Shown piece by piece: positions 1 through 16,139 of a DNA stretch of 64,000 nucleotides. Numbering within the stretch: the first letter of the stretch is position 1; every line of letters starts with the position of its first letter. Below the pieces are notes generated by a model. It searched no databases, had not been told where the DNA came from, and saw only the letters and a list, made by a program, of their open reading frames with translations. The position numbers and the translations under genes were made by a program. The DNA lies in contig CAJJAW010000005.1 of NCBI GenBank assembly GCA_905182195.1, forward strand, positions 62,001 to 126,000. Reading direction: 5' to 3'. The DNA is from Alphaproteobacteria bacterium UBA4588. Lineage in GTDB: Bacteria > Pseudomonadota > Alphaproteobacteria > Rhodobacterales > Rhodobacteraceae.

Positions 1-567
1 GCCCAATACTGCCTGATTACCCGCAGAAACCATGTAAGCCAACGGCAGTGATCGTTGGCTCATAGTGATATCAGACGAAAACATTCCAGACTGAGTGATA
101 ATTGCGGCGCCGTAGCCGGGCGACCAGCCTCCGTGCTCAAAAGACCAAAGTGCGGAATTGTCGATGTAATTGATGAGGCCGTAACAGTTGGGGCCAATTA
201 AAGCCATGTCTCCCGTAGCATCCACCAAATCTTTTTCATCTTGAATATTACCTGCTTCTTTGAACCCAGCTGAAAAACAAACCACACCGCCAGCACCTAA
301 GAGAGCCAAACTATGTAAGGCCTCAACCACATCGCTAGCCGGGATTGCCAGGTAAACCGCATCGGGCGCGATAGGTAGATCTTCTATAGAAGCAACACAG
401 GGAACGCCTGCCAAATCAGATCGCTTAGGGTTTACAGCCCACATTTCTCCATCAAATCCACGGCGACGGGCCTCATCAATAGCAATAATAGCATAGCGGC
501 CACCAATAAAAACAATGTGCCGCGGCTTTAACAGGCGTTGAAAATTTGCTCGACGACGAGGGGTCAT
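1..567 (-). CDS. NDP-forming acyl-CoA synthetase, N-terminal part (runs off the window)
   Basis: The minus-strand reading frame stays open to base 1, giving the first 189 residues. It starts with a short basic leader, then a CoA-binding Rossmann-like domain (VFIGGRYAIIAIDEARRRGF, then WAVNPKR and APDAVYLAIPAS). GAGGVVCFSAGFKEAG and IGPNCYGLINYID follow, the usual order of the CoA-binding and succinyl-CoA-ligase-like domains of NDP-forming acyl-CoA synthetases. These enzymes make an acyl-CoA from a carboxylate with ATP or GTP. The ATG overlaps the stop of the acyl-CoA dehydrogenase in an ATGA, so the two are probably translationally coupled. In context it could activate gamma-butyrobetaine, carnitine or another betaine; that substrate is inference. 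The ATP-grasp half, which would help show whether it is active, lies outside the window. Confidence 0.85.
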   Translation of the reverse strand, partial: MTPRRRANFQRLLKPRHIVFIGGRYAIIAIDEARRRGFDGEMWAVNPKRSDLAGVPCVASIEDLPIAPDAVYLAIPASDVVEALHSLALLGAGGVVCFSAGFKEAGNIQDEKDLVDATGDMALIGPNCYGLINYIDNSALWSFEHGGWSPGYGAAIITQSGMFSSDITMSQRSLPLAYMVSAGNQAVLG

Positions 568-1724
568 GCACCAAGAGGTCGCAGTATTGATCGTGTAATA
601 ATGTGGCGTTGTATCTCAGAAGTTCCATCCCAGATACGCTCCAATCTACTGTCACGCCAGAAACGTTGTATGGGCATCTCTTCCATAAGCCCCATGCCAC
701 CAAAAATTTGTACTGCATCATCAGCAATTTTATTCAGCATTTCAGAGCAAAATACTTTAATCATCGCAGCATCAGCATCACTCATCACGCCGTTCTCAGC
801 ACGGGCTACAGCGTCATTGACCAACAGATCCGCGGCACGCAGGTTCATCGCACCATCGGCCAGACGAAAACCCGTGGCCTGAAATGTCCCAATGGGTTTT
901 CCAAATTGTTTTCGAGTTGCCGCCCAATTTGTAGCCATGTCCAAGATACGCTCTGCCTTACCACAGCAAGTTGCACCCACCCAAATGCGCCCCATGCCTA
1001 ACCACTTGCCAGCCAGATCCAAACCAAGACCCTCTTCGCCCAGAACTTGTTCTTTGCCCAATCGAACATTGTCAAAATGCAGTTCAAAAGTTTTATACCC
1101 TCGATAACTTATGCAACGGGTCCCTTCTCGGCAGACAAAACCATCCATCCCCACATCGACCAGAAAAGCAGTGACCCGTTTACGGGGACCCCGCGAAGTT
1201 TCATCTTCACCCGTCGCAGCGAAGACGATTGCAAAATCAGGCATGCAAGGGCCCGAGATGAAGTGTTTAGAACCGTTAAGTATCCAATCATCCCCATCAC
1301 GTCGCGCGTTTGATTTCATACCCATCACGTCAGATCCTGCGTCAGGTTCAGACAAGGCAAACAATTCTCGTTTCTCTCCACGTACTGCGGGCAAAAGGTA
1401 CCGCTCGCGCTGATCTCCTTCACAGGCCATCAGCAACTCTGTCGGACGCGCCGCCCAACTTTGTAGTGCATGGCTGGTTTTACCGTATTCACGCTCAATC
1501 AGCGACATCGGGCCATAGCCCAGGCCACCCCCACCAACCTCTTCAGGCAAATTGCATGCAAAGAGGCCAAGCTCTTTCGACTTGGCTTCAATAGCACGGC
1601 CTATCTCATCAGGAACATGGCCCAGGCGGTCGACTTCCTCCTCATGCGGAAACATCTCAGTCTCAACAAAACGGCGGACGGTGCTCACCAACAGGTCTAT
1701 TTCGTGATTTGTTTCAATGGTCAT
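564..1724 (-). CDS. Acyl-CoA dehydrogenase family protein
   Basis: This 386-residue flavoprotein has the full acyl-CoA dehydrogenase layout: helical N-terminal domain, the beta-domain signature FALSEPDAGSDVMG, then the C-terminal helical domain with RKQFGKPIGTFQATGFRLAD and a DGTSEIQR tail. Such enzymes oxidise acyl-CoA to 2,3-enoyl-CoA and pass electrons to ETF. The start chosen is MTIETN, with a GAGG five bases upstream; an ATG at 1841 would add 39 residues unlike the family. At the position where the medium-chain enzyme has its catalytic Glu (YEGT) this protein has Asp (WDGT, about residue 366). With the CaiD-like hydratase and CoA transferase nearby it could act on gamma-butyrobetainyl-CoA or crotonobetainyl-CoA (inference). 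It sits between the BKACE gene and the acyl-CoA synthetase, the latter overlapping by 4 nt. Confidence 0.88.
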   Translation of the reverse strand: MTIETNHEIDLLVSTVRRFVETEMFPHEEEVDRLGHVPDEIGRAIEAKSKELGLFACNLPEEVGGGGLGYGPMSLIEREYGKTSHALQSWAARPTELLMACEGDQRERYLLPAVRGEKRELFALSEPDAGSDVMGMKSNARRDGDDWILNGSKHFISGPCMPDFAIVFAATGEDETSRGPRKRVTAFLVDVGMDGFVCREGTRCISYRGYKTFELHFDNVRLGKEQVLGEEGLGLDLAGKWLGMGRIWVGATCCGKAERILDMATNWAATRKQFGKPIGTFQATGFRLADGAMNLRAADLLVNDAVARAENGVMSDADAAMIKVFCSEMLNKIADDAVQIFGGMGLMEEMPIQRFWRDSRLERIWDGTSEIQRHIITRSILRPLGA

Positions 1725-1889
1725 GGAAGCCTCGCTTAATAAATGTGTGCTGCACTTTGCATTATTGGATACCAAAGATAAAAAATAAGAGCGCCTATTG
1801 GGATTAAGGTCATACGCCGTTGCTAGCTCTCTTTTTTTCAATCACTTAGTGGGCATCATAGATTTTCAAATCTACCAGTGTTGACAATA

Positions 1890-2780
1890 TTAGCCATCAG
1901 CGCCCCGCAACTTTAGCTTGTTACGAGCTTGCTGTGGCGTAGCCACGCGCCCACCCATGCGCTCAATAATTTCGCGGGCTCGAGTGACCAACTGCGCGTT
2001 AGTAGCCAACACACCACGGTCAAGGTAGATATTGTCTTCCAAACCAACACGCACGTTCCCTCCCATAGCGACCGCCGCCGCCATCATCGGCATTTGGCCA
2101 CGGCCAATTCCAAAACTGGCCCAGCTCGCATTGGGAGGCAACTGTGCCTTCATTGCCGCCATAGTCTCAACCGTTTGCTCCGCACCCCAAGGAATACCAA
2201 GGCAAATCTGGAACATCGGCGGGTCGTTGACCAAACCTTCTGCAATCATAGCTTTTGCAAAACGGATATGGCCCAATTCAAAAACCTCTAATTCAGGTTT
2301 AACGCCCCATTCCCGAGCCATTGCAGCCATTTTGCGTAATGCAGGGGGCGTCGAAATATAGATCATATCTGTGTCTGAAAAATTCAACGTCCCACAATCA
2401 AGCGAACAAATCTCGGGCAGACACTCTTTGACGTGGGCCAGCCGTTCTTCTGGACCTATCATATCAGTTCCCGGTCCCGGCATTGCCGGATTTGAGGGGT
2501 CTGACACCCAGTCTCCGCCCATGCCAGCTGTAATATTGATCACCACATCAGTGTCGCTATCTCGCACTCTATCGACAATTTCTTTGAACAACTTAGGGTC
2601 ACGCGACCCCTGCCCAGTTTCAGGATCCCGCGCATGGATATGGGTGATCGACGCGCCAGCTTTAGCTGCCTCAATTGATGCATCGGCAATCTCTTTTGGT
2701 GTCACCGGTACGTGTGGACTTTTTCCGGTAGTATCCCCCGCCCCTGTGACCGCACAGGTCAACACCACATCATAGTTCAT
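1890..2780 (-). CDS. BKACE family beta-keto acid cleavage enzyme (probable 3-dehydrocarnitine cleavage)
   Basis: This 296-residue protein belongs to the BKACE/DUF849 family (type member: 3-keto-5-aminohexanoate cleavage enzyme). These are zinc TIM-barrel enzymes that condense a beta-keto acid with acetyl-CoA, giving acetoacetate and a new acyl-CoA. The zinc-binding pair is visible as THIHARD (His47, His49), followed by [16 protein letters not shown] and RVGLEDN (Glu248, candidate third ligand). A divergent CdhR-like regulator and a carnitine dehydrogenase lie beside it. From that I infer that the substrate is 3-dehydrocarnitine and the product betainyl-CoA, which would lead to glycine betaine. 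It is the first gene of a minus-strand unit continuing, after a 165-nt gap, into the acyl-CoA dehydrogenase. Family assignment is firm; substrate is inferred from neighbours. Confidence 0.9.
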
Positions 2781-2838
2781 TTAAACGTACTCCCTTTCTG
2801 TAGAATGGCGCCAAAGGACGAAAGGTTTTTGTCGATTA

Positions 2839-2867
2839 TTCGCCACACATGTGGTTATAGTGGCGAA
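2839..2867. promoter_or_regulatory. 29-bp inverted repeat between BKACE gene and the regulator
   Basis: Perfect 8-bp arms TTCGCCAC and GTGGCGAA are separated by 13 bases, themselves holding part of a nested CCAC-ACAT-GTGG repeat. The site lies 58 bases from the BKACE start and 30 from the regulator start, so it could control both. It is a good candidate operator for the adjacent AraC/GlxA-type protein. The octamer TTTGTCGA just before it (2828-2835) recurs at 8377-8384 in the other divergent promoter of the island. Confidence 0.55.
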
Positions 2868-2897
2868 AAAATGCATGTTCTTGAAAGGACAATAACC

Positions 2898-3959
2898 ATG
2901 GAAATTGTTGTTTTACCTGAAATGGAGCCAGCACAAACACACATGATTTTCATTGTGGTTCCACGGTTCAACATTACCACCCTGATCACGATGATAGAGA
3001 CTGTTAGAATCGCAAATTACTTAGCCCCAGCTCCAATATTTTCATGGGAAGTTGCCTCGTTTGATGGTGAAAAAGTTATAGCAAGCAATGGAATGACAAC
3101 AACTGTTGCAGTCGCTAACGACAACCTCCAACCTGCCAAATTTGTCTTTATTCTGGGCAGCTGGGGCACTGAATATTACACAAACAGCAACCTAACGGCA
3201 TGGCTCAGAAAACGTGCTCGAAAAGGTGAACGTGTCTGTGGCGTTGAATTAGGCTGCTATATTATAGCGCGTGCTGGATTGTTGGATGGCAAGACAGCAA
3301 CGACGCATTGGTCATGGCTGAACGGGTTCAGAGAGAATTTTGATCGCGTAGAAGTTGAGGAAAGTCTTTTCACCTTGGATAGCAAAGTAATGACTTGTTC
3401 AGGTGGATTGGCAGGAGTCGATTTAATGCTGCGGCTTATAGAGGAGATCAGCGGCAGTGGTTTTTCTGGTGAAATTGCGGATCAAATGCTGCATCATCCG
3501 ATCCGTAGCGCCACATCGCCTCAGCGTAGTACAATGGGGCGCAGCACTGAAACGATGTTACCCCTCTTACGCGAGGCAATGACGTTGATAGAAAACAACA
3601 TAGAAGAACCATTAACAGTACCTGAAATTGCAGTTTTTCTGGGTGTTTCACAACGCCAATTAGAACGCCAATTCAAGAAACACGTCGGATGCACTGTCGT
3701 TCAGTTTGGGCTTTTGCGGCGCTTACAAAATGCACGATTACTACTTATCTCAACAGGGCTGAGCATACGTCAGATAGCGACCGCCTCAGGCTTTAACACG
3801 TTATCGCATTTCGCCTACTCGTTTGGAAAATTATTTGACCGCCGCCCTTCAGATTACCGCGAAGCATGGCCCAAAAATGAGCCCGCCCCCAGTTGGCCTG
3901 GTTCACTATCTGATTTTCTTGATACACTCAACGAACGCGCAAGAAAAGGATCACGTTGA
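2898..3959 (+). CDS. GlxA/CdhR-type transcriptional regulator (DJ-1/PfpI domain plus AraC HTH)
   Basis: The 353-residue protein has an N-terminal class-I glutamine-amidotransferase-like (DJ-1/PfpI) domain with the elbow ELGCYIIARAG. A C-terminal AraC helix-turn-helix pair follows (VPEIAVFLGVSQRQLERQFK and LSIRQIATASGFNTLSHFAY). This architecture is that of GlxA-family activators such as CdhR, GbdR and ArgR-type regulators, which sense carnitine, betaine or arginine. The start is the ATG at 2898 with AAGGA eight bases upstream; an upstream open frame reaches back into the BKACE promoter and is unlikely to be coding. Its 3-prime end overlaps that of the carnitine dehydrogenase gene by 9 nt, tail to tail. 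Together with its position this suggests a carnitine-responsive activator of the island; the ligand is inferred. Confidence 0.88.
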   Translation: MEIVVLPEMEPAQTHMIFIVVPRFNITTLITMIETVRIANYLAPAPIFSWEVASFDGEKVIASNGMTTTVAVANDNLQPAKFVFILGSWGTEYYTNSNLTAWLRKRARKGERVCGVELGCYIIARAGLLDGKTATTHWSWLNGFRENFDRVEVEESLFTLDSKVMTCSGGLAGVDLMLRLIEEISGSGFSGEIADQMLHHPIRSATSPQRSTMGRSTETMLPLLREAMTLIENNIEEPLTVPEIAVFLGVSQRQLERQFKKHVGCTVVQFGLLRRLQNARLLLISTGLSIRQIATASGFNTLSHFAYSFGKLFDRRPSDYREAWPKNEPAPSWPGSLSDFLDTLNERARKGSR

Positions 3960-4901
3960 CCGCATCTGACGCAACGCGTTTAGAACACCTACTATTTCTC
4001 GGTCACGTTGAGCCGCCATCTCCTCGAAGTGGCGATCACCAGCGACGGCGTTACACCCATCTACCATTCGGTTGCGTAGCTCTTTGGTAAGCTCCGGCGC
4101 TTCGAGACGGGTCCATGGCAGTTTAAGCGCAGGGCCAAATTGATCAAGGTTTGTGGCCATACCACCTTCACCACAGGCAACGTGAAAAGCCATGCATTGC
4201 CCCTGAGCTACCATTCGAGGCGCGGGGCCGTTCATTAGTGCTATATCGATATCTTCCGGTGTAGCCTCACCGTTGGCGACCATGTGTAATGCCTCGCGCC
4301 ATAGCGCCTCTTGGAGGCGAGTGGCTACAAAGCCTGGGATCTCTTTCTTCATCAACAGAGGAGCTTTACCTGCAACTTCGTAGAATTCTCCCGCCCAAGC
4401 AACCGCCTCTGGTGCAGTTTTCTTACCTCCCACAATCTCAACCAATGGCAAGAGGTAGGGCGGGTTGAACGGATGGCCTATTACAGTACGTTCTGGCGTC
4501 AAACAATCCAACTGAATATCACTCATCATCAATCCAGAGGTTGACGACCCAATGATCACCGAGGGCGGTAGGATTACCCCCATCTGTGCGTATAGAGCCT
4601 GTTTTATATCTAATCGTTCAGGCCCACTTTCTTGAACAAACTCAGCGCCCTCAAGGGCCTCTTTTAAATCAGTCACAATCCGCAAGCGCTGCAGCGACGC
4701 ACCAGGCGCAAGCCCCAAATCAGTAAGACTGCCCCATGCCGTGTTGAGGATTGACATAAAAGCAGGGGTTTCTGCGACGTCATGCAAATAAGCGGTGACG
4801 TCATAGCCCCGCGCCAAAAAATGTGCGGTCCAGCCGCCACCAATTGGGCCAGCCCCCAAGCTGGTGACACGTGTGACAGATTTTGGTTCAGGATACATCA
4901 T
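3951..4901 (-). CDS. L-carnitine dehydrogenase (3-hydroxyacyl-CoA dehydrogenase family)
   Basis: This 316-residue NAD-dependent dehydrogenase oxidises the 3-hydroxyl of L-carnitine to 3-dehydrocarnitine in the known members. It has the Rossmann motif SLGAGPIGGGW near residue 15, the segment IGSSTSGLMMSDIQ, and the catalytic-His motif GHPFNPPYLLPLVE (His143), as in carnitine dehydrogenases of the HCDH family. Some homologues carry a fused thioesterase; this one ends after the dehydrogenase domain. It starts with ATGATG, the first ATG overlapping the stop of the CaiD-like gene by 4 nt. The BKACE enzyme that would take the product is 1.1 kb away across the regulator gene. A plain 3-hydroxybutyryl-CoA dehydrogenase is the alternative, less likely given the neighbours. 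Confidence 0.87.
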   Translation of the reverse strand: MMYPEPKSVTRVTSLGAGPIGGGWTAHFLARGYDVTAYLHDVAETPAFMSILNTAWGSLTDLGLAPGASLQRLRIVTDLKEALEGAEFVQESGPERLDIKQALYAQMGVILPPSVIIGSSTSGLMMSDIQLDCLTPERTVIGHPFNPPYLLPLVEIVGGKKTAPEAVAWAGEFYEVAGKAPLLMKKEIPGFVATRLQEALWREALHMVANGEATPEDIDIALMNGPAPRMVAQGQCMAFHVACGEGGMATNLDQFGPALKLPWTRLEAPELTKELRNRMVDGCNAVAGDRHFEEMAAQRDREIVGVLNALRQMRST

Positions 4902-5701
4902 TCGCCCTTAAAGTTAGGCTCACGCTTTTCGACAAAGGCGGCAACGCCTTCTTTAGCGTCAGTAGATTTTAACATTTTGCGATAGGCCGGCATTGGGTCT
5001 GTTCGCATTTTGTGAAAAGCTTTTTCCAGGGAGACACATTCGATTTCACGTTGTACTTCCTTAACTGATTGCATCGCCAACGGAGCAGACCAAGCTATGG
5101 CGGCAGCCCATTCACGTGCAGTTTCCATCAATTTATCTTTAGAAACGACCTTGTTTACTAACCCGTAGTGAGCCGCCTCAGCCGCGGTCATTCGCCGACC
5201 CAGCAGGAACATTTCCATCGCAATATTGTGGGGAATGCGACGCGGTAGACGCTGAAGTGCACCTGCATCAGGTACAATTCCAAGAGGCATTTCAGGCAGA
5301 CCGAACTCCACATGATCAGCAGCAATTAGAAGATCACATCCCATAGCCATTTCAAACCCCCCGCCAATTGCCAACCCGTTTATAGCGGCAATGACAGGTT
5401 TGTTCAGCGCCCAATTTTCTGTCAGTCCAGTAAAACCTCCAAAACCATACTCATCAGCTTCCCACCAGTTATCTAGTTGCATCTCTCCATCGTTCAGAGC
5501 CTTGAGGTCCCACCCAGCAGAAAATATCTTATCACCACCACCAGTTAGAATAGCGCAACGAAGTTCCTTGTCTTCGTGCAGTTCCTGAAACGCTGCAGCC
5601 AGTGCCTGCGAGGTATGCACATCAATGGCATTCACCTTGCCACGCTCCAGCGTAACTTCTAATACGTGTCCATCACGGCTGACATTTACACCTTCTGACA
5701 T
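4898..5701 (-). CDS. caiD: CaiD-like enoyl-CoA hydratase (probable crotonobetainyl-CoA hydratase)
   Basis: The 267-residue crotonase-fold protein closely follows E. coli CaiD along its length. It has KVNAIDVHTSQAL, FSAGWDLKALNDG, GGFTGLTE, the oxyanion-hole region NGLAIGGGFEMAMGCDLLIA, LPEMPLGIVPDAG, and the C-terminal EKREPNFKGE. CaiD interconverts crotonobetainyl-CoA and L-carnitinyl-CoA. In this strongly oxidative island the likely direction is hydration towards carnitine, feeding the dehydrogenase that overlaps it by 4 nt. The luciferase-like monooxygenase lies 10 nt upstream in the same unit. The CaiD match is by residue pattern from memory, so a related hydratase with another substrate remains possible. 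Confidence 0.85.
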   Translation of the reverse strand: MSEGVNVSRDGHVLEVTLERGKVNAIDVHTSQALAAAFQELHEDKELRCAILTGGGDKIFSAGWDLKALNDGEMQLDNWWEADEYGFGGFTGLTENWALNKPVIAAINGLAIGGGFEMAMGCDLLIAADHVEFGLPEMPLGIVPDAGALQRLPRRIPHNIAMEMFLLGRRMTAAEAAHYGLVNKVVSKDKLMETAREWAAAIAWSAPLAMQSVKEVQREIECVSLEKAFHKMRTDPMPAYRKMLKSTDAKEGVAAFVEKREPNFKGE

Positions 5702-5711
5702 GAAACGTTCC

Positions 5712-6746
5712 TTATCTGAATTCTGGTATTACTTCGTTGCAGAACATCCGCAACGATCGTTTTTGGGCCGCGTGATCAAGCCCCATAGAGGCATAATAAA
5801 TGAACTCATCTACGCCCAACTTCTGATAGCGCTTGAGTTTTTTGACCACGGTATCCGGTGAGCCAAACATCAGGTTTTCCTCCAACATAGCGGGGTCATA
5901 TTGTTCGCGGCCCTCTAACTCATGTAGTGGAATCTCTTTTGGAAAACCATTTTTAACATCGCCAAGATTACGGTATAAATTTTCAAATTGCCCCAAAACA
6001 CGAGTGATCGCATTGACTGCCAGATCACGGTCTGCCTGGTTTTTATACAAGGCAGTATGGCGCATCAGCGCAAAAATAGGGTTCGACTTACCACCATGTT
6101 TTGCAATTGATTCGTCCAAATGCCGTCTGTACAACTCGGCCTCATCATGTGGACGCGTAAAGGGCCAACACATAATATTAGCATCATTTGCAACTGCATA
6201 GTCATAAGTGATTGGTGACCTAGCTGCCACCCAAATGCGTGGGTCAGTTTGTAATGGCTTAGGCACTGAGGACGAAGTTGGAAATTGCCAGTATTCCCCA
6301 TCATGCTCATAATCGCCCTTCCATAGAGCTAAGACGGCAGGCAGCATTTCCTGCATATATTTGTAACCATCAGACTGAAGTAGGCCAGGCTTCATCCGAT
6401 CAAACTCACGCTGATACGCCCCAGACCCAATGCCAAATTCCAATCGACCACCACTAATTAAATCAAGGAACGCAGCCTCCCCTGCTAACTTGATTGGATG
6501 CCAATAGGCCGCATTTACACAAGCGGTTCCAAGCCGGATTTTGCTAGTCTCACCAGCCCACCACGTCAATATTTGGAACGGGTTGGGGGCAATCGTCATT
6601 TCCAGAGCGTGGTGTTCAGCGGCCCAAACAATCCCAAAACCACCATCCTCAGCCATTTGCACCATTTCTAAAGTGTGGCGGGCAACATCTTTCATATCGA
6701 TACTGCTATCCAAGCGTTCAAGATTTATGGCTAATTGAAATTTCAT
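5712..6746 (-). CDS. LLM-class (luciferase-like) flavin-dependent monooxygenase
   Basis: The 344-residue protein is a bacterial-luciferase-fold TIM barrel: AEDGGFGIVWAAEHH near residue 40, WWAGETSKIRLGTACVN, LISGGRLEFGIGSGAYQREF, and the C-terminal FGSPDTVVKKLKRYQKLGVD. Such enzymes use reduced FMN and oxygen to hydroxylate, cleave or oxidatively open substrates, and need a separate flavin reductase. A candidate partner is the reductase domain fused to the CoA transferase at 9640-11352. The start is the ATG at 6746 with AAAGGAC upstream; an in-frame ATG 36 bases earlier lacks a ribosome site. Its substrate is unknown. The surrounding RidA, alpha/beta hydrolase and aldehyde dehydrogenase genes recall the RutA setting, but the protein need not act on pyrimidines. 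Confidence 0.88.
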   Translation of the reverse strand: MKFQLAINLERLDSSIDMKDVARHTLEMVQMAEDGGFGIVWAAEHHALEMTIAPNPFQILTWWAGETSKIRLGTACVNAAYWHPIKLAGEAAFLDLISGGRLEFGIGSGAYQREFDRMKPGLLQSDGYKYMQEMLPAVLALWKGDYEHDGEYWQFPTSSSVPKPLQTDPRIWVAARSPITYDYAVANDANIMCWPFTRPHDEAELYRRHLDESIAKHGGKSNPIFALMRHTALYKNQADRDLAVNAITRVLGQFENLYRNLGDVKNGFPKEIPLHELEGREQYDPAMLEENLMFGSPDTVVKKLKRYQKLGVDEFIYYASMGLDHAAQKRSLRMFCNEVIPEFR

Positions 6747-6820
6747 ATTAATGGTCCTTTCGTAGGTCTTTAGTAAATTCATAATTCTTGGTGGTTAGAA
6801 ATTTAATTGATATGCTCAGA

Positions 6821-8302
6821 TCATCGCATCACAAAGGGATTTGCCATTGGCTCATCAGAGGTGTTTATCCAAATTGTTTTGGGCCGAGTGTAATCATAAA
6901 TTGCTTGAAACCCACTTTCACGACCATAGCCAGATCCTTTGACACCACCAAATTCAGCAATTGGCGACACGACGCGGTAGGTGTTCACCCAAACTATCCC
7001 TGCGCGCACTAAATTGGCCATCCGCAGGGAACGAGCCGCATTTTGCGTGAATATTCCAGCCGCGAGCCCAAGTTCAGAATCATTAGCAAGTTCCAGCACC
7101 TCTTCCTCAGTCTTGAAACGCTGCACTGACAAAACAGGCCCAAACAATTCGGTGTCGACAATACGCAAACCCTGACGGGGGCATTCGATGATTGTTGGCT
7201 CATAAAACAATCCACCCATACCCTCCGGTTGTTTGCCGCCTGCGAGTATTTTTGCGCCTTGCTCTTGTGCATGCGCCACCTCGCGTTGAATATTTTCTAA
7301 TTGGCTAGTGGTGCACAGCGGACCCATTTGTGTCTCTTCCGCCAGCGGATCACCAATAACAATTTGGCGCGTAAGAGCAGTCATCCTTTCAAGGAACTCA
7401 TCTGCAATGTCGTCATGCAGATAAAGCCGCGATCCAGCGACACAGCTTTGTCCCGTCGCGCCGAATATTCCCGCGATCGAGGCATTAACGGCGCTTTCTA
7501 TATTTGCGTCATCAAACACGATAAACGGAGATTTTCCACCAAGCTCCAACGAAACCTCTGCAAAGTTACGTTTAACATTTTCCAATACGTGGCGCGCAGC
7601 ACTTGGCCCACCGGTGAAGGACACCCGCGCAACCAATGGATGCCCTGTTAGCGCGCGGCCGCATGGCTCACCGTGGCCTGTGACGATGTTGACAACCCCT
7701 GGCGGTATGCCGGCCTCTTTGATCAGCTTACCAAAATCAAGCATCGCAGCACTAGCATGCTCAGAGGCCTTCAACACCACAGTATTACCTGCGGCCAAGG
7801 CCGGTCCCAATTTAACGGCCACCAAAAATAGCTGCGAGTTCCATGGCACAACGGCTGCTACAACGCCGAGGGGTTCACGTTTGGTAAACACGAACATGTC
7901 AGGTTTGTCGATTGGCAGGGTTTCGCCGTTAACTTTATCTGCACAGCCAGCAAAAAAGTGAAAAAAATCAGCGATGTACTTAGCTTGCCATCGGGTTTCC
8001 TTCAGCATCTTGCCTGTATCAATAGACTCAGTCCGCCCCAAGCCTTCAGATTGCTCGGCCAGTAAATCTCCCAATTTACGCAGACACTTGCCACGCTCTG
8101 TTGGCGTAAGTTTAGACCATGGCCCTTTGGTAAATGAGTGATGTGCAGTTTCAACAGCGAGATTTACATCGGCCTCTGTTGCTTCCGGAATGCGGCTCCA
8201 TATTTCTCCTGTGGTAGGGTTCACACTGTCGAACGTGCCGCCATCTGATGCATCAACCCAGTTACCGTTGATCAACATTTGATAGTTTTTAATATCGCTC
8301 AT
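6821..8302 (-). CDS. NAD(P)-dependent aldehyde dehydrogenase
   Basis: The 493-residue protein is a complete classical aldehyde dehydrogenase. The general-base Glu253 lies in VSLELGGKSPF, the catalytic Cys287 in GATGQSCVAGSR, and the cofactor region is seen in PWNSQLFL and VSFTGGPSAARHV. The C-terminal FGGVKGSGYGRE and YTRPKTIWIN complete the pattern. It is the first gene of the minus-strand unit that continues with the monooxygenase, the hydratase and carnitine dehydrogenase, and it is divergent from the RidA unit. Possible roles are oxidation of trimethylaminobutyraldehyde to gamma-butyrobetaine, or of a semialdehyde released by the monooxygenase/RidA branch. The sequence alone does not choose between them. 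Confidence 0.9.
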   Translation of the reverse strand: MSDIKNYQMLINGNWVDASDGGTFDSVNPTTGEIWSRIPEATEADVNLAVETAHHSFTKGPWSKLTPTERGKCLRKLGDLLAEQSEGLGRTESIDTGKMLKETRWQAKYIADFFHFFAGCADKVNGETLPIDKPDMFVFTKREPLGVVAAVVPWNSQLFLVAVKLGPALAAGNTVVLKASEHASAAMLDFGKLIKEAGIPPGVVNIVTGHGEPCGRALTGHPLVARVSFTGGPSAARHVLENVKRNFAEVSLELGGKSPFIVFDDANIESAVNASIAGIFGATGQSCVAGSRLYLHDDIADEFLERMTALTRQIVIGDPLAEETQMGPLCTTSQLENIQREVAHAQEQGAKILAGGKQPEGMGGLFYEPTIIECPRQGLRIVDTELFGPVLSVQRFKTEEEVLELANDSELGLAAGIFTQNAARSLRMANLVRAGIVWVNTYRVVSPIAEFGGVKGSGYGRESGFQAIYDYTRPKTIWINTSDEPMANPFVMR

Positions 8303-8396
8303 TCCAACCGTCCTCCGTTGTCTCGTAACTATTCATGGCTGCTTTCACCGCTAGCATAAACGAAAAAACGACGCCGTTTGTCGAAAAATCCGAAAG

Positions 8397-8412
8397 TGTT
8401 CGATTGCGAACA
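8397..8412. promoter_or_regulatory. 16-bp inverted repeat in the divergent aldh/ridA promoter
   Basis: TGTTCG-ATTG-CGAACA is a perfect inverted repeat with a 4-base spacer, 30 bases upstream of the RidA start codon and 95 from the aldehyde dehydrogenase start. It is a plausible regulator site shared by the two units. The octamer TTTGTCGA at 8377-8384 is also found next to the inverted repeat upstream of the regulator gene (2828-2835), hinting at common control. No regulator gene lies directly beside it. Confidence 0.5.
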
Positions 8413-8441
8413 GGGCACGTTGCTTTTAACGGAGGCTCAAA

Positions 8442-8843
8442 ATGGTCAACAAAAAACAAATCATCGGAGGTCCACTTGAAATTGGTGGGCGTGTCCTGTC
8501 GCTGTCAAAAGCAATTCGCGCAGGAGATTTTGTGTTCCTGACAGGTCAGATCCCGATGCGCGACGGCGTGCCAATGACTGATGGCACAGTAAAGGATCAA
8601 ACTCGTGCTATTCTCGACGACATAACCGATACTCTAGCCGAGGCAGGTTGCAGCCGCGATGATGTGGTCAAGTCCATGGTCTGGCTTCGGGAACGCGCCG
8701 ACTTCCCCGGTTTCAACGAAATTTATGGTGAATACTTCCCAGTCAAACCACCCACACGATCCGCCATTGTCAGCGATCTACTGGTAGATGCACGGGTGGA
8801 GGTTGAGGTCATGGCCTACCGTCCACTTGAAAGCGATAGTTGA
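8442..8843 (+). CDS. RidA family protein (YjgF/YER057c/UK114)
   Basis: The 133-residue protein has the Rid fold signature: GDFVFLTGQIPMRDG, DQTRAILDDITDTLAEAGCS, and the conserved arginine motif PPTRSAIVSDLLVDARVEVE with Arg106 in the position that binds substrate carboxylates in active deaminases. Rid proteins hydrolyse reactive enamines and imines such as 2-aminoacrylate; RutC is the member used in pyrimidine breakdown. It is the first gene of a plus-strand unit, and its TGA overlaps the next ATG by one base (TGATG). The setting with a luciferase-like monooxygenase and an alpha/beta hydrolase suggests clearance of an unstable enamine intermediate, which is inference. Confidence 0.88.
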   Translation: MVNKKQIIGGPLEIGGRVLSLSKAIRAGDFVFLTGQIPMRDGVPMTDGTVKDQTRAILDDITDTLAEAGCSRDDVVKSMVWLRERADFPGFNEIYGEYFPVKPPTRSAIVSDLLVDARVEVEVMAYRPLESDS

Positions 8844-9643
8844 TGGCCATTACGCCAGACGGCACAAAATTTGAACTAACCGGTCCTGCAGACGCGCCTG
8901 TTGTGGTTATGATCCATGGACTTGGGTTGAGCAAAGAGTGTTGGCAGTGGACCGCCCCTGCCCTAGAGGACGCCTACCGCGTCTTGAGTTATGATCTTTA
9001 TGGGCACGGTGGATCTGTCCCGCCCCCACAAACCCCCAACCTTTCAATGTTTTCAACACAATTGAGCGGACTTCTTGCTCATTGCAGAGTTGAGCGCGCG
9101 ATAATCGCGGGCTTTTCATTGGGGGGGATGATAGCACGCCGCTTTGCGCAAGATGTTCCACAACAGACACAAGCGTTGGTTATTTTACATTCGCCACATA
9201 AACGTGATCAAGAAGCGCAGGCAGCTATCCTAAAACGTGTACATCAAGCCCAAAAACTTGGCCCTCAGTCAACGATTGAAGCGGCGCTTGAACGTTGGTT
9301 TACTCAAAGATTTCGCGTAGCAAACCCCGACACAATGGAGACTGTTAGACGATGGGTTAAGGCCAACAAAAAGTCAATTTACCATACTATCTATAGTGTC
9401 CTTGCGACAGGCATTGACGAGATTGTTACTCCAGATCCAGCCATCATCTGCCCTGCGCTAGTCATGACCAGCGACGAAGATTATGGTAATGGCCCAGTAA
9501 TGGCGCGCGCCATTGCTGCAGAAATTCCAGGCGCCGAGACGCTAATACTTTCGAATTTGCGGCACATGGCGTTGGTCGAGGATCCTGAGGCCATTAACAG
9601 GCCGATAAGACAATTTCTCGACAAGTTAGGTTTGCCTGCATGA
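8843..9643 (+). CDS. Alpha/beta-fold hydrolase
   Basis: The 266-residue protein shows an alpha/beta hydrolase core: MIHGLGLSKECW (oxyanion HG), YDLYGHGGS, the nucleophile elbow AGFSLGGM with Ser92, and a late histidine in NLRHMALVEDP (His241). An acidic residue in MTSDEDYGN is the likely triad partner. The ATG at 8843 shares a base with the RidA stop; a TTG one codon earlier is the alternative. Its stop overlaps the next gene in ATGA, so the three are tightly coupled. RutD-type aminoacrylate hydrolases and 3-oxoadipate enol-lactonases are of this type. In the carnitine reading it could instead serve as the thioesterase releasing betaine from betainyl-CoA, since no hotdog thioesterase is present. 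Substrate unknown. Confidence 0.85.
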   Translation: MAITPDGTKFELTGPADAPVVVMIHGLGLSKECWQWTAPALEDAYRVLSYDLYGHGGSVPPPQTPNLSMFSTQLSGLLAHCRVERAIIAGFSLGGMIARRFAQDVPQQTQALVILHSPHKRDQEAQAAILKRVHQAQKLGPQSTIEAALERWFTQRFRVANPDTMETVRRWVKANKKSIYHTIYSVLATGIDEIVTPDPAIICPALVMTSDEDYGNGPVMARAIAAEIPGAETLILSNLRHMALVEDPEAINRPIRQFLDKLGLPA

Positions 9644-11352
9644 GTACGCAAATCCTAAAAGGTCTGCGAGTACTTGACCTCAGTCGAATGCTATCTGGGC
9701 CCTATTGTACAATGCATCTAGCTGATCACGGCGCAGAGGTGATCAAGATTGAAGGCGGCAGCGGCGACACAAGTCGCGGCAACGGGCCCTTCCGAGGTGA
9801 CGATCCCAACCATGATTGGGCCGGCTACTTTGTCAGCCTCAACCGTGGCAAGAAAAGTATCCAGCTGGATTTAAAATCACCAGAAGGCCACGCAAGTTTT
9901 TGTAAACTTGCAGTGCATGCAGACGTGATCGTCGAAAACTTCCGGCCCGGAGTAATGGAGCGTTTGGACCTAGCATACGAATCTCTTGCGGCGAAGAACC
10001 CTAAACTAGTTTATGCCGCCATACGTGGTTTTGGCGATCCACGAAGTGGTACTAGCCCGTATGGTGAGTGGCCATCTTATGATGTTGTGGCTCAGGCAAT
10101 GGGCGGCCTGATCGCGATGACCGGCCCAGATGCAAATACCCCAACCAAAACTGGTCCAGGCGTTGGAGATATTTTTGCAGGTATGATGATGGCCTTTGGC
10201 ATTATGGCAGCTTTGCGCGAGGCTGAGGCGACGGGCAAAGGTCAATTCGTAGATGTCGCCATGTATGATGCGATGATTTCGCTTTGCGAACGAATGGTTT
10301 ACCTTCACGATATGACCGGTACCGTGCCAGGCCCGGAGGGCAATAGCCATCCATTCCTCGCCCCCTTCGGGTTGTTTCCAGCCAAGGACGGACACGTTGC
10401 GCTTGGTATTGTTGATGATGCTTTTTGGCAACGATTGGCCACACTTATGGGCCGGGATGATCTGGTTAGCGATCCGCGCTTTGCAACCCGTGCGGCCCGG
10501 GCAACCAATTCGACTGAACTAAACGCTATAGTAGCCAACTGGTGCAGTTTGCATAGCAAAGACAAACTGACGGCCACATTGGGCGGTGAGGTGCCCTACG
10601 GCCCACTGAACAACATCGCCGACATCATTCGAGATCCTCATGTGATTTCACGGGGCATGATGGCTCAGATTCAGGGGCCATCACCACATCAGAAGCCATG
10701 GACTGTCGCGGCTAATCCACTGCGATTTGGGGCGCATGGTCACGGCCCACTTGCCTCCCCACCAGCTCTGGGCGCAGATGACCATCTGCTAGCAAAACTT
10801 TCTACGGTTAAAAAAATAGACCAAGAAGGCAAGCACGAACTGCGCAACGCATTTGGCAGTTTTGCCACAGGCGTGACCATCGTGACAACATGCCAACCAG
10901 ACGGAAAACCACGCGGATTTACTGCTAACTCCTTTACCTCTGTCTCACTTGACCCACCGTTGTTGTTAGTTTGCATCTCCAAGGAAGCCCTATCGTGTAA
11001 CACCTTTGAGAAAGCAGAGCATTTTGCAGTCAATATTCTTGCCAGCGACCAAAAAGAGATTTCCAGTCTGTTTGCTTCACAATCAACCGAAAAGTTCGAG
11101 ATCACTAAATGGCACGCTAATGCACAGAACATACCGCTGATTGAAGATACTGTGGCTAATTTCAGTTGTGCACGACACCGTTTGGTGGATGGAGGCGATC
11201 ATCTAATCTTAATGGGGGAAGTCCTGAACTTTGAGGTAAGTAAGGGTACGGCTCTTGGCTATTATAATGGTACGTATTTTGGTATTAATCACGAAACTAA
11301 GGCTGCAGGTATTGCAAATCCCCTCACAACGCACCGAAACTATAAAATTTAG
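9640..11352 (+). CDS. Fusion protein: family III CoA-transferase plus flavin reductase domain
   Basis: One continuous 570-residue frame joins two enzymes. Residues 1 to about 385 are a CaiB/BaiF family III CoA-transferase: LKGLRVLDLSRMLSGPYC, AEVIKIE, NRGKKSIQLDLKSPEG, and the region TGPGVGDIFAG with the likely catalytic Asp177. After a short linker, residues about 398 to 560 are an FMN-binding flavin reductase domain (LRNAFGSFATGVTIVTT, GFTANSFTSVSLDPPLLLV, HFAVNILASDQ, GDHLILMGEV). The first part would move CoA between carboxylates; the second would supply reduced flavin to the luciferase-like monooxygenase of the island. I see no frame break or stop at the junction, so the fusion looks genuine. 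The ATG overlaps the preceding stop by 4 nt and the PF06684 gene follows after 13 nt. Confidence 0.9.
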   Translation: MSTQILKGLRVLDLSRMLSGPYCTMHLADHGAEVIKIEGGSGDTSRGNGPFRGDDPNHDWAGYFVSLNRGKKSIQLDLKSPEGHASFCKLAVHADVIVENFRPGVMERLDLAYESLAAKNPKLVYAAIRGFGDPRSGTSPYGEWPSYDVVAQAMGGLIAMTGPDANTPTKTGPGVGDIFAGMMMAFGIMAALREAEATGKGQFVDVAMYDAMISLCERMVYLHDMTGTVPGPEGNSHPFLAPFGLFPAKDGHVALGIVDDAFWQRLATLMGRDDLVSDPRFATRAARATNSTELNAIVANWCSLHSKDKLTATLGGEVPYGPLNNIADIIRDPHVISRGMMAQIQGPSPHQKPWTVAANPLRFGAHGHGPLASPPALGADDHLLAKLSTVKKIDQEGKHELRNAFGSFATGVTIVTTCQPDGKPRGFTANSFTSVSLDPPLLLVCISKEALSCNTFEKAEHFAVNILASDQKEISSLFASQSTEKFEITKWHANAQNIPLIEDTVANFSCARHRLVDGGDHLILMGEVLNFEVSKGTALGYYNGTYFGINHETKAAGIANPLTTHRNYKI

Positions 11353-11365
11353 CAGGAGAAAAATC

Positions 11366-11974
11366 ATGCTTCCCGAATTGCGAAAAGTTATTACTTTTGA
11401 CGAACAAATTCATAGTGAGGGAGGGCGTAAGTCGGATCCAGTTTTACGCATGATTGGGGTAGCGGCTGTAGTAAAAAACCCTTGGGCGGGCCGAGAGTTT
11501 GTTGAGGATTTATCACCTGAGATTAAGCGAATGGCTCCATTTTTAGGTGAGCTTCTGTCGGATCGCCTGATTGAACTGGCAGGATCAGGCGATGCCATTG
11601 AGGCCTATGGAAAGGCCTGTATAGCCGGCACCAGCTGCGAAGTTGAGCATGCTTCCGCTCTGATCCACACATTACAGTTTGGCAATTTCTACCGTGAAGC
11701 GGTTGGCGCCAAAAGTTACCTTGGCTTTACCAACACCCGTGGTCCAGCAAACACACAAATTCAAATCCCTCTAATGGATAAACATGATACAGGACGTCGC
11801 TCACACTACCTGACAGTACAGTTTTCAATTTATGACGCACCGGGAGTTGACGAATTAGTTGTTGCTCTGGGCGCCGCAACCCGCGGTCGTCCACATCACC
11901 GGATTGGAGATAGGTATTCAGATCTAGCGGCTATGGGGCGCGATGTGGACAATCCGGCAGGCGTTGCGGACTAA
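11366..11974 (+). CDS. PF06684 (DUF1185, 'amino acid synthesis') family protein
   Basis: The 202-residue protein matches the PF06684 family: RKVITFDEQIHSEGG at the start, then RMIGVAAVVKNPWAGRE, LAGSGDAIEAYGKACIAG, EVEHASALIHTLQFGN, YLGFTNTRGPANTQIQIPL and GRPHHRIGDRYSDL. The family has a chorismate-mutase-like, Rid-like fold and no proven reaction. The start at 11366 has AGCAGGAG eight bases upstream; a longer open frame reaching back to 11255 lies inside the fusion gene and is a shadow. It closes the ridA-hydrolase-fusion unit, and its presence with a luciferase-like monooxygenase and RidA is informative about the unknown pathway. Cytoplasmic, no signal or membrane segment. Confidence 0.82.
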   Translation: MLPELRKVITFDEQIHSEGGRKSDPVLRMIGVAAVVKNPWAGREFVEDLSPEIKRMAPFLGELLSDRLIELAGSGDAIEAYGKACIAGTSCEVEHASALIHTLQFGNFYREAVGAKSYLGFTNTRGPANTQIQIPLMDKHDTGRRSHYLTVQFSIYDAPGVDELVVALGAATRGRPHHRIGDRYSDLAAMGRDVDNPAGVAD

Positions 11975-12469: not shown

Positions 12470-13684
12470 TTAAGCCGGGCTCAGCCCGCGCAGCCTCTCT
12501 GATCGCCTTCGTAGCAACTCAAGTGTCATAAGCAACAAAACAGAAATACCAACCAATATAGTAGCTACAGCCAAAATAGTCGGACTGATCTGCTCACGCA
12601 AACCTATAAACATTTGCCAAGGAAGCGTTTTTTGGCTGGCGGAGCCAATAAACATCACAACGACAACTTCATCAAACGAGGTGATGAACGCAAACAACCC
12701 GCCAGAGATCACACCAGGCATAATTAACGGCATTTGAACCTTGAAAAAGGTTTTTACCGGACCTGCACCCATGTTAGCTGCAGCGCGCGTAAGGGATTTA
12801 TCAAAACCAACGAGCGTTGCTGTAACTGTTATAATGACAAAAGGAATGCCCAAAACTGCGTGTGCCAGAATTACTTTGACGTAGCCAACCAAGTTTTTAT
12901 CAAGCCCTAAGGTATTCTCCATAAAATTACCCATGGTCGAGTAGAAGAAGAACATACCCATCGCCGAAATAATCAGAGGCACTATCATAGGCGAAATAAG
13001 GATCGCCATAATTGCCCGCTTGGCTGGCACATGGCTTTGACTGAGTCCAATAGCGGCGAGCGTTCCAAGCGAAACCGAAATAATCGTCGCAAACGGAGCA
13101 ATTATTAGTGAATTCCAAAACGAACGTTGCCAATCGCCGTTGTTAAAAAAATCCTGATAGTGCTTGAGAGAATAACCTACAGGGTCCAGACGCAACATTT
13201 CAGGGGTGAAAGTAAAAAAATCCTGAGCGTTGAAAGACAAAGGCATCACCACGAGAATGGGCGTAATCAAGAAAGTAAAGATCAGCCCGCAGATTACCCT
13301 AAAACTATAATGCCATAAGACCTGTCCAGCGGTAAGGTAGGGATGTAATTTTGCGCGGTAACCACCTTCGTAAATCCAATAGAAAAACCATCCAAAAAAC
13401 CACCCATACAGCGCACCAAAAAATCCACTAATTGGACCCAAAAATATCAAACCTAAAATAGCTAAAGGTACGGGCAAAATTAGACGAATAACTTTTTGAC
13501 TCAAATACTGAGTTGAAATAATCAGGTAGGCAAGAAACACAGAGACTGTTGAAACAAGAGTAAGCCCAACTAGAGCCGATCCGAATGTAGGCCCAAAAAA
13601 TACACCAACAAAGCCTCCCATAAGCCCCATCATAGGCAATACGAAAGACACAGGGCGCCGCAATACCTGATGAAATATAGCCAT
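12470..13684 (-). CDS. ABC transporter permease, PotC/YdcV type, with N-terminal membrane extension
   Basis: The 404-residue inner-membrane protein has a usual PotC-like permease from about residue 122 on (GLIFTFLITPILVVMPLSFN). It includes the ATPase-docking EAA loop LTRAAANMGAGPVKTFFKVQ and the end TFDEVV-type segment FITSFDEVVVVMF. Ahead of it lie about 120 extra residues with three or four hydrophobic glycine-rich segments (GLMGGFVGVFFGPTFGSALV, GPISGFFGALYGWFFGWFFY). Permeases of this family are usually near 270 residues, so the extension is notable. It is the last gene of the importer operon, 4 nt after the other permease. With its partner it would form the membrane channel for a polyamine-, opine- or betaine-like substrate; which one is not visible. 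Confidence 0.87.
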   Translation of the reverse strand: MAIFHQVLRRPVSFVLPMMGLMGGFVGVFFGPTFGSALVGLTLVSTVSVFLAYLIISTQYLSQKVIRLILPVPLAILGLIFLGPISGFFGALYGWFFGWFFYWIYEGGYRAKLHPYLTAGQVLWHYSFRVICGLIFTFLITPILVVMPLSFNAQDFFTFTPEMLRLDPVGYSLKHYQDFFNNGDWQRSFWNSLIIAPFATIISVSLGTLAAIGLSQSHVPAKRAIMAILISPMIVPLIISAMGMFFFYSTMGNFMENTLGLDKNLVGYVKVILAHAVLGIPFVIITVTATLVGFDKSLTRAAANMGAGPVKTFFKVQMPLIMPGVISGGLFAFITSFDEVVVVMFIGSASQKTLPWQMFIGLREQISPTILAVATILVGISVLLLMTLELLRRRSERLRGLSPA

Positions 13685-13688
13685 TATA

Positions 13689-15033: not shown

Positions 15034-15047
15034 CAATTTTAAGTGTT

Positions 15048-16139
15048 CTATTGAGCAAGCCAAGCTTGGAACTTAGACTCGATATCGTCCTTATAATCTG
15101 CCCAGAAAGCATAGTTCATCAGGAACGTATTCTTCGAGTTAGCAGGATCTGTTGGCATATGAGGTGCCATGTCGATGCCTAGTTCCGCATGCTTATCAAC
15201 CAACAGCGCTGATGACGCACGTGTCGGGCCATAGCTGATCCATCTGGACTGATCTGCAAGACGCTGTGTGTCGGTTGCAAATCTCACATAGTGCAGCGCT
15301 CTAGCTTGACGCTCTGGGCTCAGGCCGGTTGGAATGATCCATCCGTCAAGGTCGTAAATTTGACCGTCCCAAAGCATTGAAACAGGCTGATTTTGCTCTT
15401 CGATCAAGGCAAATAAACGGCCGTTAAATGTCGAGCCCATGACAACTTCGCCATCAGCCAACAATTGTGGCGTATCGGCGCCTGCAGACCACCAGATCAC
15501 ATCGTCTTTGATGGTGTCCAGTTTAGCAAGAGCTTGATCCTGACCGGCAGCTGTTTCCAGTGTCGGATAGATATCGGCTTTAGCGACGCCATCACAAAGA
15601 AGCGCCCACTCCATGTTGGAAAGCGCACCTTTTTTCAGCGAACGCTTGCCCGGATATGTTTCGGTATCAAAGATTGCACAGATACTTGTGGGAGGCGTGC
15701 TGCCAACCATGTCGTTGCGATAACCCACGGTGTATGAGTAAACTATCTGTGGTATAAAGCACTCTGACACGATGAAATCGCCAAAATCTACTGAAGCAAG
15801 AGTTCCGTCTGGTGCGTCGGCCAACATGAAATCGTGATCGATTTCCATTGCAAGACCTTCATCACAAAGCTGCATTGCCGGTCCGGCTTCAACGTCGACA
15901 ACATCCCAAGTTAAATTGCCCGCTTCTTTCATAGCACGCAATTTTGGCACTGCGGTACCGGCACTTTCATCATTAATTATAGTGACGCCGGTATTTGCCG
16001 TATAGGGCTCATGATAAGCTTTGAGTTGTGATTTGGAATAAGCCCCGCCCCATGACACGATGGTCATTTCCTCGGCAAGTGCCAATCCTGCAAATAGCGA
16101 AAGTGCCGCCGTTGCAAAAACAGTATTTTTATATTTCAT
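15048..16139 (-). CDS. Periplasmic solute-binding protein of a PotD/opine-type ABC importer
   Basis: The 363-residue protein starts with a Sec signal peptide (MKYKNTVFATAALSLFAGLA, cleavage likely after ALA). It then has the typical onset of family-1 polyamine/opine binding proteins, EEMTIVSWGGAYSKSQLKAY. Later parts are WDVVDVEAGPAMQLCDEGL, KKGALSNMEWALLCDGVAKA and LSPERQARALHYVRFA. Four cysteines in the mature part could form disulphides. The start is the ATG at 16139 with GGGAGAA upstream. It lies between the ATPase gene and a hairpin that precedes the permeases. The ligand cannot be read from the sequence; a polyamine, an opine-like compound or a betaine is possible given the catabolic island next door. 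Confidence 0.88.
   Translation of the reverse strand: MKYKNTVFATAALSLFAGLALAEEMTIVSWGGAYSKSQLKAYHEPYTANTGVTIINDESAGTAVPKLRAMKEAGNLTWDVVDVEAGPAMQLCDEGLAMEIDHDFMLADAPDGTLASVDFGDFIVSECFIPQIVYSYTVGYRNDMVGSTPPTSICAIFDTETYPGKRSLKKGALSNMEWALLCDGVAKADIYPTLETAAGQDQALAKLDTIKDDVIWWSAGADTPQLLADGEVVMGSTFNGRLFALIEEQNQPVSMLWDGQIYDLDGWIIPTGLSPERQARALHYVRFATDTQRLADQSRWISYGPTRASSALLVDKHAELGIDMAPHMPTDPANSKNTFLMNYAFWADYKDDIESKFQAWLAQ

Follow-up and report, generated by a model that had tools for sequence, protein, structure and literature searches.

What is a bacterium equipped to degrade when genes of the carnitine type lie beside a luciferase-like monooxygenase? The question is raised by the first 11,974 nt of a 64,000 nt stretch of DNA (the window, G000:C5:62001-126000) from Alphaproteobacteria bacterium UBA4588, a member of the Rhodobacteraceae with a genome of 2.62 Mb in 12 contigs. 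An earlier note on this DNA described a catabolic island there, and suggested either two linked routes or one new route in which the monooxygenase opens or cleaves a nitrogen compound. The island contains two groups of genes. One is a core with a luciferase-like monooxygenase (LLM), a flavin reductase, an aldehyde dehydrogenase (ALDH), an alpha/beta hydrolase (ABH) and a PF06684 protein, accompanied by RidA. The other, which we call the chain, includes an acyl-CoA synthetase (ACS), an acyl-CoA dehydrogenase (ACDH), an enoyl-CoA hydratase (ECH), a dehydrogenase related to L-carnitine dehydrogenase (CDH) and BKACE. The island is predicted to be a variant of the trigonelline-type ring-opening clusters with a carnitine-type extension. 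We propose, with moderate confidence, that it is a two-module catabolic unit, ring opening plus carnitine-type chain, for zwitterionic N-methylated betaines.

Co-occurrence of core and chain

The two groups of genes belong together across genomes. An alignment of eight A-type LLMs was used as the query of a survey, in which the best 80 of 394 loci were taken. We have counted the 46 loci whose two flanks are each 7 kb or longer, excluding 34 with shorter ones; identity thresholds were set by the script. ECH and CDH are both present in 37 of these 46 loci, the other nine have neither. The share does not apply to LLMs in general, since the query was built solely from chain-bearing LLMs. The 37 chain-bearing loci also contain BKACE (36), ALDH (36), ACDH (35), ACS (35), the regulator (34), the hydrolase (32), PF06684 (28), the reductase (26), RidA (25) and the CoA transferase (22). 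Cultured strains with the chain include Ruegeria conchae TW15 and Sulfitobacter brevis DSM 11443 (L103 and L119). These neighbourhood counts rule out a chance adjacency of both groups in a single genome: Their linkage is real and probably functional.

The distribution of CDH points in the same direction. In 198 genomes of the family, CDH (E <= 1e-90, at least 60% identity) is found in seven, and ECH (E <= 1e-85) in the same seven. All of them carry an LLM with at least 66% identity, no more than about 8 kb away in the same contig. The hypergeometric probability is 1.2e-7 with 23 LLM genomes; the list corresponds to 23 places (at least 62% identity) in 22 genomes, which gives about 8e-8. In a sample of 385 genomes of the class, 11 have CDH (seven at 59% or more, four at 51-55%) and 13 have LLM (E <= 1e-120), including all seven with CDH of at least 59%. 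The corresponding values are 7e-12 (7/7) and 2e-9 (7/11), uncorrected for kinship and habitat, and both samples include the genome of the window. Among 72,556 plasmid records, the only two with CDH of at least 60% identity are the two with LLM of at least 60%. A chain without core was not found among the close CDH homologues of these 198 and 385 genomes and 72,556 plasmid records. As the chain goes with the core and not the reverse, the substrate or product of the chain probably meets the core.

The same distribution could result from two separate routes which are inherited together, joined by ecology or transfer: One from gamma-butyrobetaine or crotonobetaine through carnitine to betainyl-CoA, the other an unrelated route for an N-heterocycle. 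We regard this as possible. Cores without chain are common (the nine loci above), although three of them (L097, L110 and L147) have chain homologues elsewhere in the same genome. The modules may also lie apart. In G205 (L110/L209) they are about 0.9 Mb from each other on one chromosome, in G204 (L097/L208) they are on different contigs, and in both genomes a separate CdhR-type regulator and Pot-type transporter accompany each module, as would suit two routes. The BKACE-ACDH-ACS part of G209 is about 1.5 Mb from its LLM part. In the class sample, the modules are neighbours on one contig in five of the seven genomes, clearly apart in G295 and on two contigs in G250, where the split may be an assembly effect, since both contigs end in the same open reading frame (ORF). 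The 25 genomes reached through LLM loci include nine with CDH of at least 59% identity and 16 without it; the set contains several incomplete metagenome-assembled genomes (MAGs).

Two separate routes would also agree with the neighbours of more distant CDHs. Those with 51-56% identity to that of the window adjoin BKACE genes in L190, L191 and L193. The CDH of L193 passes the cut-off for L-carnitine dehydrogenase (455/414 bits), and L190 contains BKACE, CDH, a thioesterase-like piece, a regulator and an ORF which we read as gamma-butyrobetaine dioxygenase-like. As CDHs of 51-55% identity are found in such settings, a trimethylammonium-type substrate of the chain is quite possible. It is thus plausible that the first group suffices in outline for a gamma-butyrobetaine-type route, as the earlier note had it.

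On the other hand, the genome already has a canonical carnitine cluster elsewhere, so the island is not its sole carnitine-type equipment, and carnitine as the only route of the island is weakened. In contig C7 (L168:8036-11494), a dehydrogenase of 479 aa with a C-terminal thioesterase-type extension passes the carnitine 3-dehydrogenase model (773/592 bits), next to a GlxA-type regulator and a BKACE split over two reading frames, a break which may be real or an assembly error. The CDH of the window is only 38.6% identical to this carnitine 3-dehydrogenase. Another part of C7 (L168:14660-18684) has ORFs which, as we read them, resemble a eukaryotic picoalga, possibly through contamination or a chimeric contig end.

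A further point against two separate routes, besides the absence of close CDH homologues without LLM, is the fusion of CoA transferase and flavin reductase in a single ORF (CoAT-FR). This fusion is found in 34 of the 61 reductase-bearing ORFs from 143 loci (one locus, fetched twice, accounts for two of the 34). It is suggestive, not a proof, as there are other fusions (hydrolase-reductase in L033, L034, L092 and L093, truncated transferase-reductase in L091, L097 and L110) and the reductase is unfused in L102 and L107.

Gene content and curated names

All the gene families named in the earlier note are present at 1-11974 according to Pfam and NCBIfam, in three units around one CdhR-type regulator (GATase1-AraC). 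The order is ACS-ACDH-BKACE (minus strand), regulator (plus), CDH-ECH-LLM-ALDH (minus) and RidA, ABH, CoAT-FR and PF06684 (plus). Some details had to be corrected: ACS is truncated by the window edge (the whole ORF, 697 aa, is at L002:10474-12567), CoA transferase and flavin reductase are one ORF, and the island extends past 11974, with a Pot-type ABC transporter (12470-17345) followed by a second RutF-like reductase. The features are given below, with bit scores from Pfam/NCBIfam profile searches of the island proteins; a/b means score/curated cut-off.

1..567, minus: ACS, ADP/NDP-forming acyl-CoA synthetase, N-terminal part (PF13380, 46 bits)
564..1733, minus: ACDH, acyl-CoA dehydrogenase (PF00441/PF02770/PF02771)
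1890..2780, minus: BKACE (PF05853, 345 bits; about 54% identity to the complete BKACE of a Leisingera carnitine cluster)
2895..3959, plus: CdhR/GbdR-type regulator, GATase1-AraC (PF01965 + PF12833; GbdR 237/480)
3951..4901, minus: CDH, 3-hydroxyacid dehydrogenase related to L-carnitine dehydrogenase (NF005471, 301/414)
4898..5701, minus: ECH, enoyl-CoA hydratase related to crotonobetainyl-CoA hydratase, CaiD (NF002936, 301/500)
5712..6746 (ORF open to 6782), minus: LLM, luciferase-like flavin-dependent monooxygenase, proposed ring opener, TgnB-like (PF00296, 179 bits)
6821..8302, minus: ALDH, aldehyde dehydrogenase, proposed TgnC-like (PF00171, 531 bits; about 53% identity to the ALDH of trigonelline-type clusters)
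8442..8843, plus: RidA-family enamine/imine hydrolase (PF01042, 83 bits; RutC 49/169)
8840..9643, plus: ABH, alpha/beta hydrolase, PcaD-like, proposed enamide/formamide hydrolase (PF12697; PcaD 148/256; RutD 70/238.5)
9640..11352, plus: CoAT-FR, class III CoA transferase and flavin reductase domain, single ORF of 570 aa (PF02515, 407.7 bits; PF01613, 137.5 bits)
11363..11974, plus: PF06684 protein ('amino acid synthesis' by its Pfam name; PF06684, 228 bits)
12470..13684, minus: Pot-type ABC permease 1, which could work for either the core or adjoining eut-type genes (PF00528)
13689..14963, minus: ABC permease 2 (PF00528)
15048..16154, minus: solute-binding protein (PF13416, 179 bits)
16248..17345, minus: ABC ATPase with TOBE domain (PF00005 + PF08402)
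17905..18393, plus: stand-alone RutF-like flavin reductase (PF01613, 103 bits; RutF 93.5/254.75)

In the island, all the carnitine and Rut names we have checked stay below their NCBIfam cut-offs. Besides the scores listed above, CDH has 251/592 with carnitine 3-dehydrogenase, and the Cai models have 158/540 (crotonobetainyl-CoA dehydrogenase, CaiA) and 116/413 (L-carnitine CoA-transferase, CaiB). By these scores, 'carnitine dehydrogenase' and 'CaiD-like' denote no more than a family resemblance. ACDH, hydratase and CoA-activating enzymes are clustered, as in a Cai-like CoA route for gamma-butyrobetaine, and BKACE is near CDH, as in a carnitine route. The island shares CoA transferase III, a CaiD-like hydratase and an acyl-CoA dehydrogenase with the Cai system of Escherichia coli. 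It differs in the BKACE end step and in the transferase, which is closer to succinyl-CoA:mesaconate transferase (404 bits) than to L-carnitine CoA-transferase. For ACDH no cut-off is reached among the 22 NCBIfam models listed, and the BKACE of the window differs in many alignment columns from a carnitine BKACE.

The carnitine-to-glycine-betaine cluster (cdhABC/CdhR) has the CDH and BKACE families and the GATase1-AraC regulator in common with the island, which differs by its distant CDH, below the cut-offs and lacking the thioesterase domain, and by the extra ACDH, ECH and acyl-CoA synthetase. No domain or gene for a betainyl-CoA thioesterase was recognised among the island proteins scanned, another point against a separate carnitine route. 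An Arctic SAR11 island has carnitine dehydrogenase, BKACE and gamma-butyrobetaine dioxygenase, according to passages of PMC12421898. Both islands are marine and combine CDH, BKACE, ALDH and a betaine ABC transporter; the passages on the SAR11 island have gamma-butyrobetaine dioxygenases instead, and do not name a luciferase-like monooxygenase, RidA or PF06684.

The earlier note also compared the second group with RutA/C/D/E/F. RidA, the hydrolase, the flavin reductase and LLM do match RutC, RutD, RutF and RutA superficially, which could suggest cleavage of a pyrimidine or another cyclic amide. We find this very improbable. RutC, RutD and RutF (88/255 for the RutF domain of CoAT-FR) are far below the cut-offs, which rules out membership of the Rut pathway, and RutA is absent from the 25 best of 29 models for LLM. 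RutB amidohydrolase and RutG permease were not recognised among the island proteins scanned, and related clusters are found in betaine contexts. The resemblance to Rut has to be abandoned: The clusters that match are of the trigonelline type.

Upstream, beyond ACS, the island goes on with a ProXWV-like betaine transporter (L002:7453-10466, named from sequence and tblastn). The cargo of the Pot-type transporter is uncertain, since it also adjoins eut-type genes in L063. Relatives of the stand-alone reductase adjoin LLM cores in other genomes. Between eut-type genes and the island (L002:1240-5728), PutA-like and ornithine-cyclodeaminase-like genes appear in several frame pieces. A promoter/terminator scan found 22 sites, not above the shuffles (means of 24.9 and 20.4).

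The core and its settings

LLM is found in 53 of the 198 family genomes at E <= 1e-60: 22 of them have at least 62% identity, the others 33-45%. The nearest relatives among the matches listed are from Planktomarina and other marine Rhodobacterales (94% identity). Maps of 34 loci by tblastn show a recurrent core of LLM, ALDH, PF06684, hydrolase and flavin reductase, which appears in three settings. In setting A, also found on annotated Aminobacter and Parasedimentitalea plasmids, the core is accompanied by CDH/ECH/BKACE/ACDH, as in the window. In setting B there is no chain, most loci have a LysR-type regulator (read from sequence) and many a thiamine-diphosphate enzyme. Setting C has the order PF06684-hydrolase-reductase-LLM-ALDH, with LLMs 36-39% identical to that of the window. 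A setting D is seen in L069 and L070, on annotated Agrobacterium and Azospirillum plasmids, where the core is joined by a carboxymuconolactone-decarboxylase-like gene, NIPSNAP and ProXWV; these and further rhizobial plasmids carry LLMs of a third clade, with about 45% identity. The match to a setting is incomplete in a few loci: L034 has a core without chain, L038 a regulator without chain, L041 and L045 have no PF06684, L064 has no ALDH match, and L055 is of another kind.

PF06684 is near LLM in 32 of the 34 loci. Taken alone it is a poor marker of LLM, as it is present in 116 of the 198 genomes, often as tandem pairs elsewhere (e.g. G032:C51:103993-105095); the family seems to have another context there, remote from LLM. 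Fold comparison of PF06684 gave significant matches only to two uncharacterised members of the family, 3byq and 2qtp.

A quick tree of 120 LLMs separates a trigonelline-type clade, a D clade and a clade of 103 rows with A, B and core-only loci, with supports of 99-100. The window LLM is thus outside the trigonelline-type clade. The main B group (12 rows) is nested inside the chain-bearing LLMs, the enclosing forks having supports of about 90.

Of the 11 loci with LLMs of 36-39% identity (L056-L066), ten have all five core genes, the exception being L064. On the Sinorhizobium plasmid pSymA, the region from noeB to nifB (L071:12618-23290) contains GntR, PF06684, hydrolase, flavin reductase, LLM, ALDH, NIPSNAP, ABC and succinate-semialdehyde dehydrogenase (SSADH) genes; the SSADH passes TIGR01780 (696/646). 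The gene set is also found in Pararhizobium, with a cytosine permease in an Acinetobacter venetianus plasmid and in Chimaeribacter, and in Aquabacterium, near genes for glutamine synthetase III, an amidotransferase, glxC and glutamate-synthase-like proteins. We take these Aquabacterium neighbours to be of the gmaS/mgs type of methylamine assimilation. The Tgn enzymes comprise an LLM and a reductase, with an aldehyde dehydrogenase, a hydrolase and SSADH, and trigonelline catabolism of S. meliloti has reportedly been mapped to the symbiotic region of pSym. By their gene sets, the setting-C clusters look like trigonelline (TgnA/TgnB) clusters, and that of pSymA is a candidate trigonelline catabolic cluster.

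The island agrees with this type. As in tgnA/tgnB of Acinetobacter baylyi, a two-component flavin LLM, a reductase, an ALDH and a hydrolase are together in one cluster, and betaine-type substrates are predicted for the island. PF06684 is common to the trigonelline-type clusters and the window (60-68% identity), and SSADH is found in the Sinorhizobium and Aquabacterium clusters. No SSADH or NIPSNAP was seen in the window island, which has in addition RidA, the CoA transferase-reductase fusion and the carnitine-type module. The match of the core makes opening of a nitrogen compound by the monooxygenase the better reading of those offered before.

Alternatively, LLM might act on an acyclic betaine by C-N cleavage or N-dealkylation, in the manner of nitrilotriacetate monooxygenase, giving an aldehyde for ALDH, an amine, and acids of the gamma-butyrobetaine type for the chain. 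The operon order ALDH-LLM-ECH-CDH would suit this idea. So would ALDH, whose best resemblance is to betaine-aldehyde dehydrogenases (472/668.6 bits), and the fold of LLM, which is generic for the luciferase family and gives no hint of the substrate. We consider it improbable: The NtaA/DmoA model gives LLM just 42 bits, the hydrolase, RidA and PF06684 would be left without an evident role, and the five-gene set is common to the clusters of the ring-opening type.

In a congener (G045), the site is flanked on both sides by the same genes, mostly 75-93% identical. Between them there is a compact core, hydrolase-PF06684-LLM-ALDH (46, 55, 64 and 69% identity), after which come the ABC transporter (47-86%) and, at 78%, the RutF-like reductase. 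In 40 kb of this sister, at E <= 1e-15, there is no match for the chain, RidA, the fused CoA transferase or ProX/ProW; CDH and ProV have only weak matches (27 and 39%) to other genes. The window version looks like a larger cassette where its sister has a compact core.

Other genes near the cores include betaine-type transporters (ProXWV, and BCCT-like proteins in two loci, c43, by our own reading) and two GbcA-like Rieske oxygenase families (142 and 140 bits, cut-off 670) in eight and seven of 115 loci, several of them directly between ALDH and LLM. Genes which we name gmaS/mgs-type methylamine-assimilation genes are found in nine of the 115 loci, from eight distinct genomes; their synthetase has 652/469 bits for type III. 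A malate/lactate/sulfolactate-dehydrogenase-like gene, below all cut-offs, lies between ProV and the chain genes in L205 (3553-4545) and could code for an imine reductase. Near the core of a core-only Pseudooceanicola locus (L106:15401-18554) there are a phosphotriesterase-family gene, NIPSNAP and an NMT1-type binding protein. An Oceanospirillaceae MAG (L077) has an LLM 93% identical to that of the window, a second LLM at 26% and chain genes at 40-64%, which suggests transfer or a binning error. The CoA transferase of Aminobacter L067 was rejected as an orthologue of the fused one, being just 33% identical. We have also dropped the C5-dicarboxylate route suggested by MaoC, a CoA ester lyase and MmgE/PrpD in L067: Of these partners, only the first two recur, in one (L066, 41 and 44%) of the 143 loci searched.

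Predicted route and substrate

Gene families, gene sets, conservation, co-occurrence, fusion and the same-site comparison were computed; from them we infer every reaction and substrate given here, and the release of methylamine. In module 1, by homology to the trigonelline-type clusters, LLM with FMNH2 and O2 would open an N-methylpyridinium-type ring beside the N-methyl nitrogen. ALDH would oxidise the resulting aldehyde, the alpha/beta hydrolase would cleave an N-formyl enamide and RidA would hydrolyse an enamine or imine, giving formate, methylamine and an oxo acid. PF06684 may act on a common N-methylformamide part, since the window and setting C have 60-68% identity in this protein and only 25-33% in the hydrolase. 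Module 2 (ACS/CoA transferase, ACDH, ECH, CDH and BKACE) would convert X-CH2-CH2-COO- into X-CO-CoA and acetoacetate, through CoA activation, desaturation, hydration, release of the 3-hydroxy acid, oxidation and the BKACE step. In Aminobacter, an acetoacetate-CoA ligase gene follows the synthetase.

Trigonelline, which would belong to the sister clade with 36-39% identity, is an unlikely substrate; a related betaine is predicted. For the A/B clade homarine is our leading guess, an unproven one. The homarine route through N-methylglutamate would lead to a glutamate skeleton. To reach it, C6 of the ring would have to be lost as formate and C5 oxidised, which favours homarine. Mgd takes part in homarine catabolism, according to a passage of PMC13390433 that cites other work, and this role would fit the loss of one ring carbon. 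The LysR-linked cores among L042-L054, nine of which have an Xsc-like thiamine-diphosphate enzyme (424/620 bits in L048), are candidates for the published homarine pathway.

Both modules might even form a single route: A marine N-methylated betaine with a side chain two carbons longer would be shortened by module 2 to the CoA ester of the core substrate, whose ring would then be opened. Here the CoA transferase part of CoAT-FR would sit at the junction of the modules. A single route would explain why no chain was found without the core while the core may stand alone, as well as the separate transporters and the fusion. We consider it rather unlikely.

Several observations weigh against the proposed two-module unit, in addition to the separately regulated modules of G204 and G205. 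Four genomes of the class sample, with CDHs of 51-55% identity, have no LLM at E <= 1e-120. The co-occurrence is partly plain linkage, as the modules are adjacent in all seven genomes of the family sample and clearly unlinked only in G295 in the class sample. The identity of LLM (36-39%) and hydrolase (25-33%) to those of the trigonelline-type clusters is low. In L102 and L107, which bear the chain, the CoA transferase is missing and the reductase is not fused. The methylamine-type genes may adjoin other islands too. Finally, according to passages of PMC8269262, steric constraints make it unlikely that TgnA/TgnB, which opens the ring of trigonelline, would accept homarine.

No description of this island was found among the titles and abstracts of the literature matches listed. 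PF06684, behind whose Pfam name we have seen no function here, may now be placed as a frequent partner of LLM oxygenases, and the putative ring-opening monooxygenases fall into three clades with distinct neighbours. The pool of labile nitrogen and carbon in the sea includes betaines like homarine, trigonelline, carnitine and butyrobetaine. The island is kept in Planktomarina, Ruegeria, Roseovarius, Sulfitobacter and single-cell genomes, which points to a betaine that is still unassigned, and it offers ready deletion targets in cultured strains.

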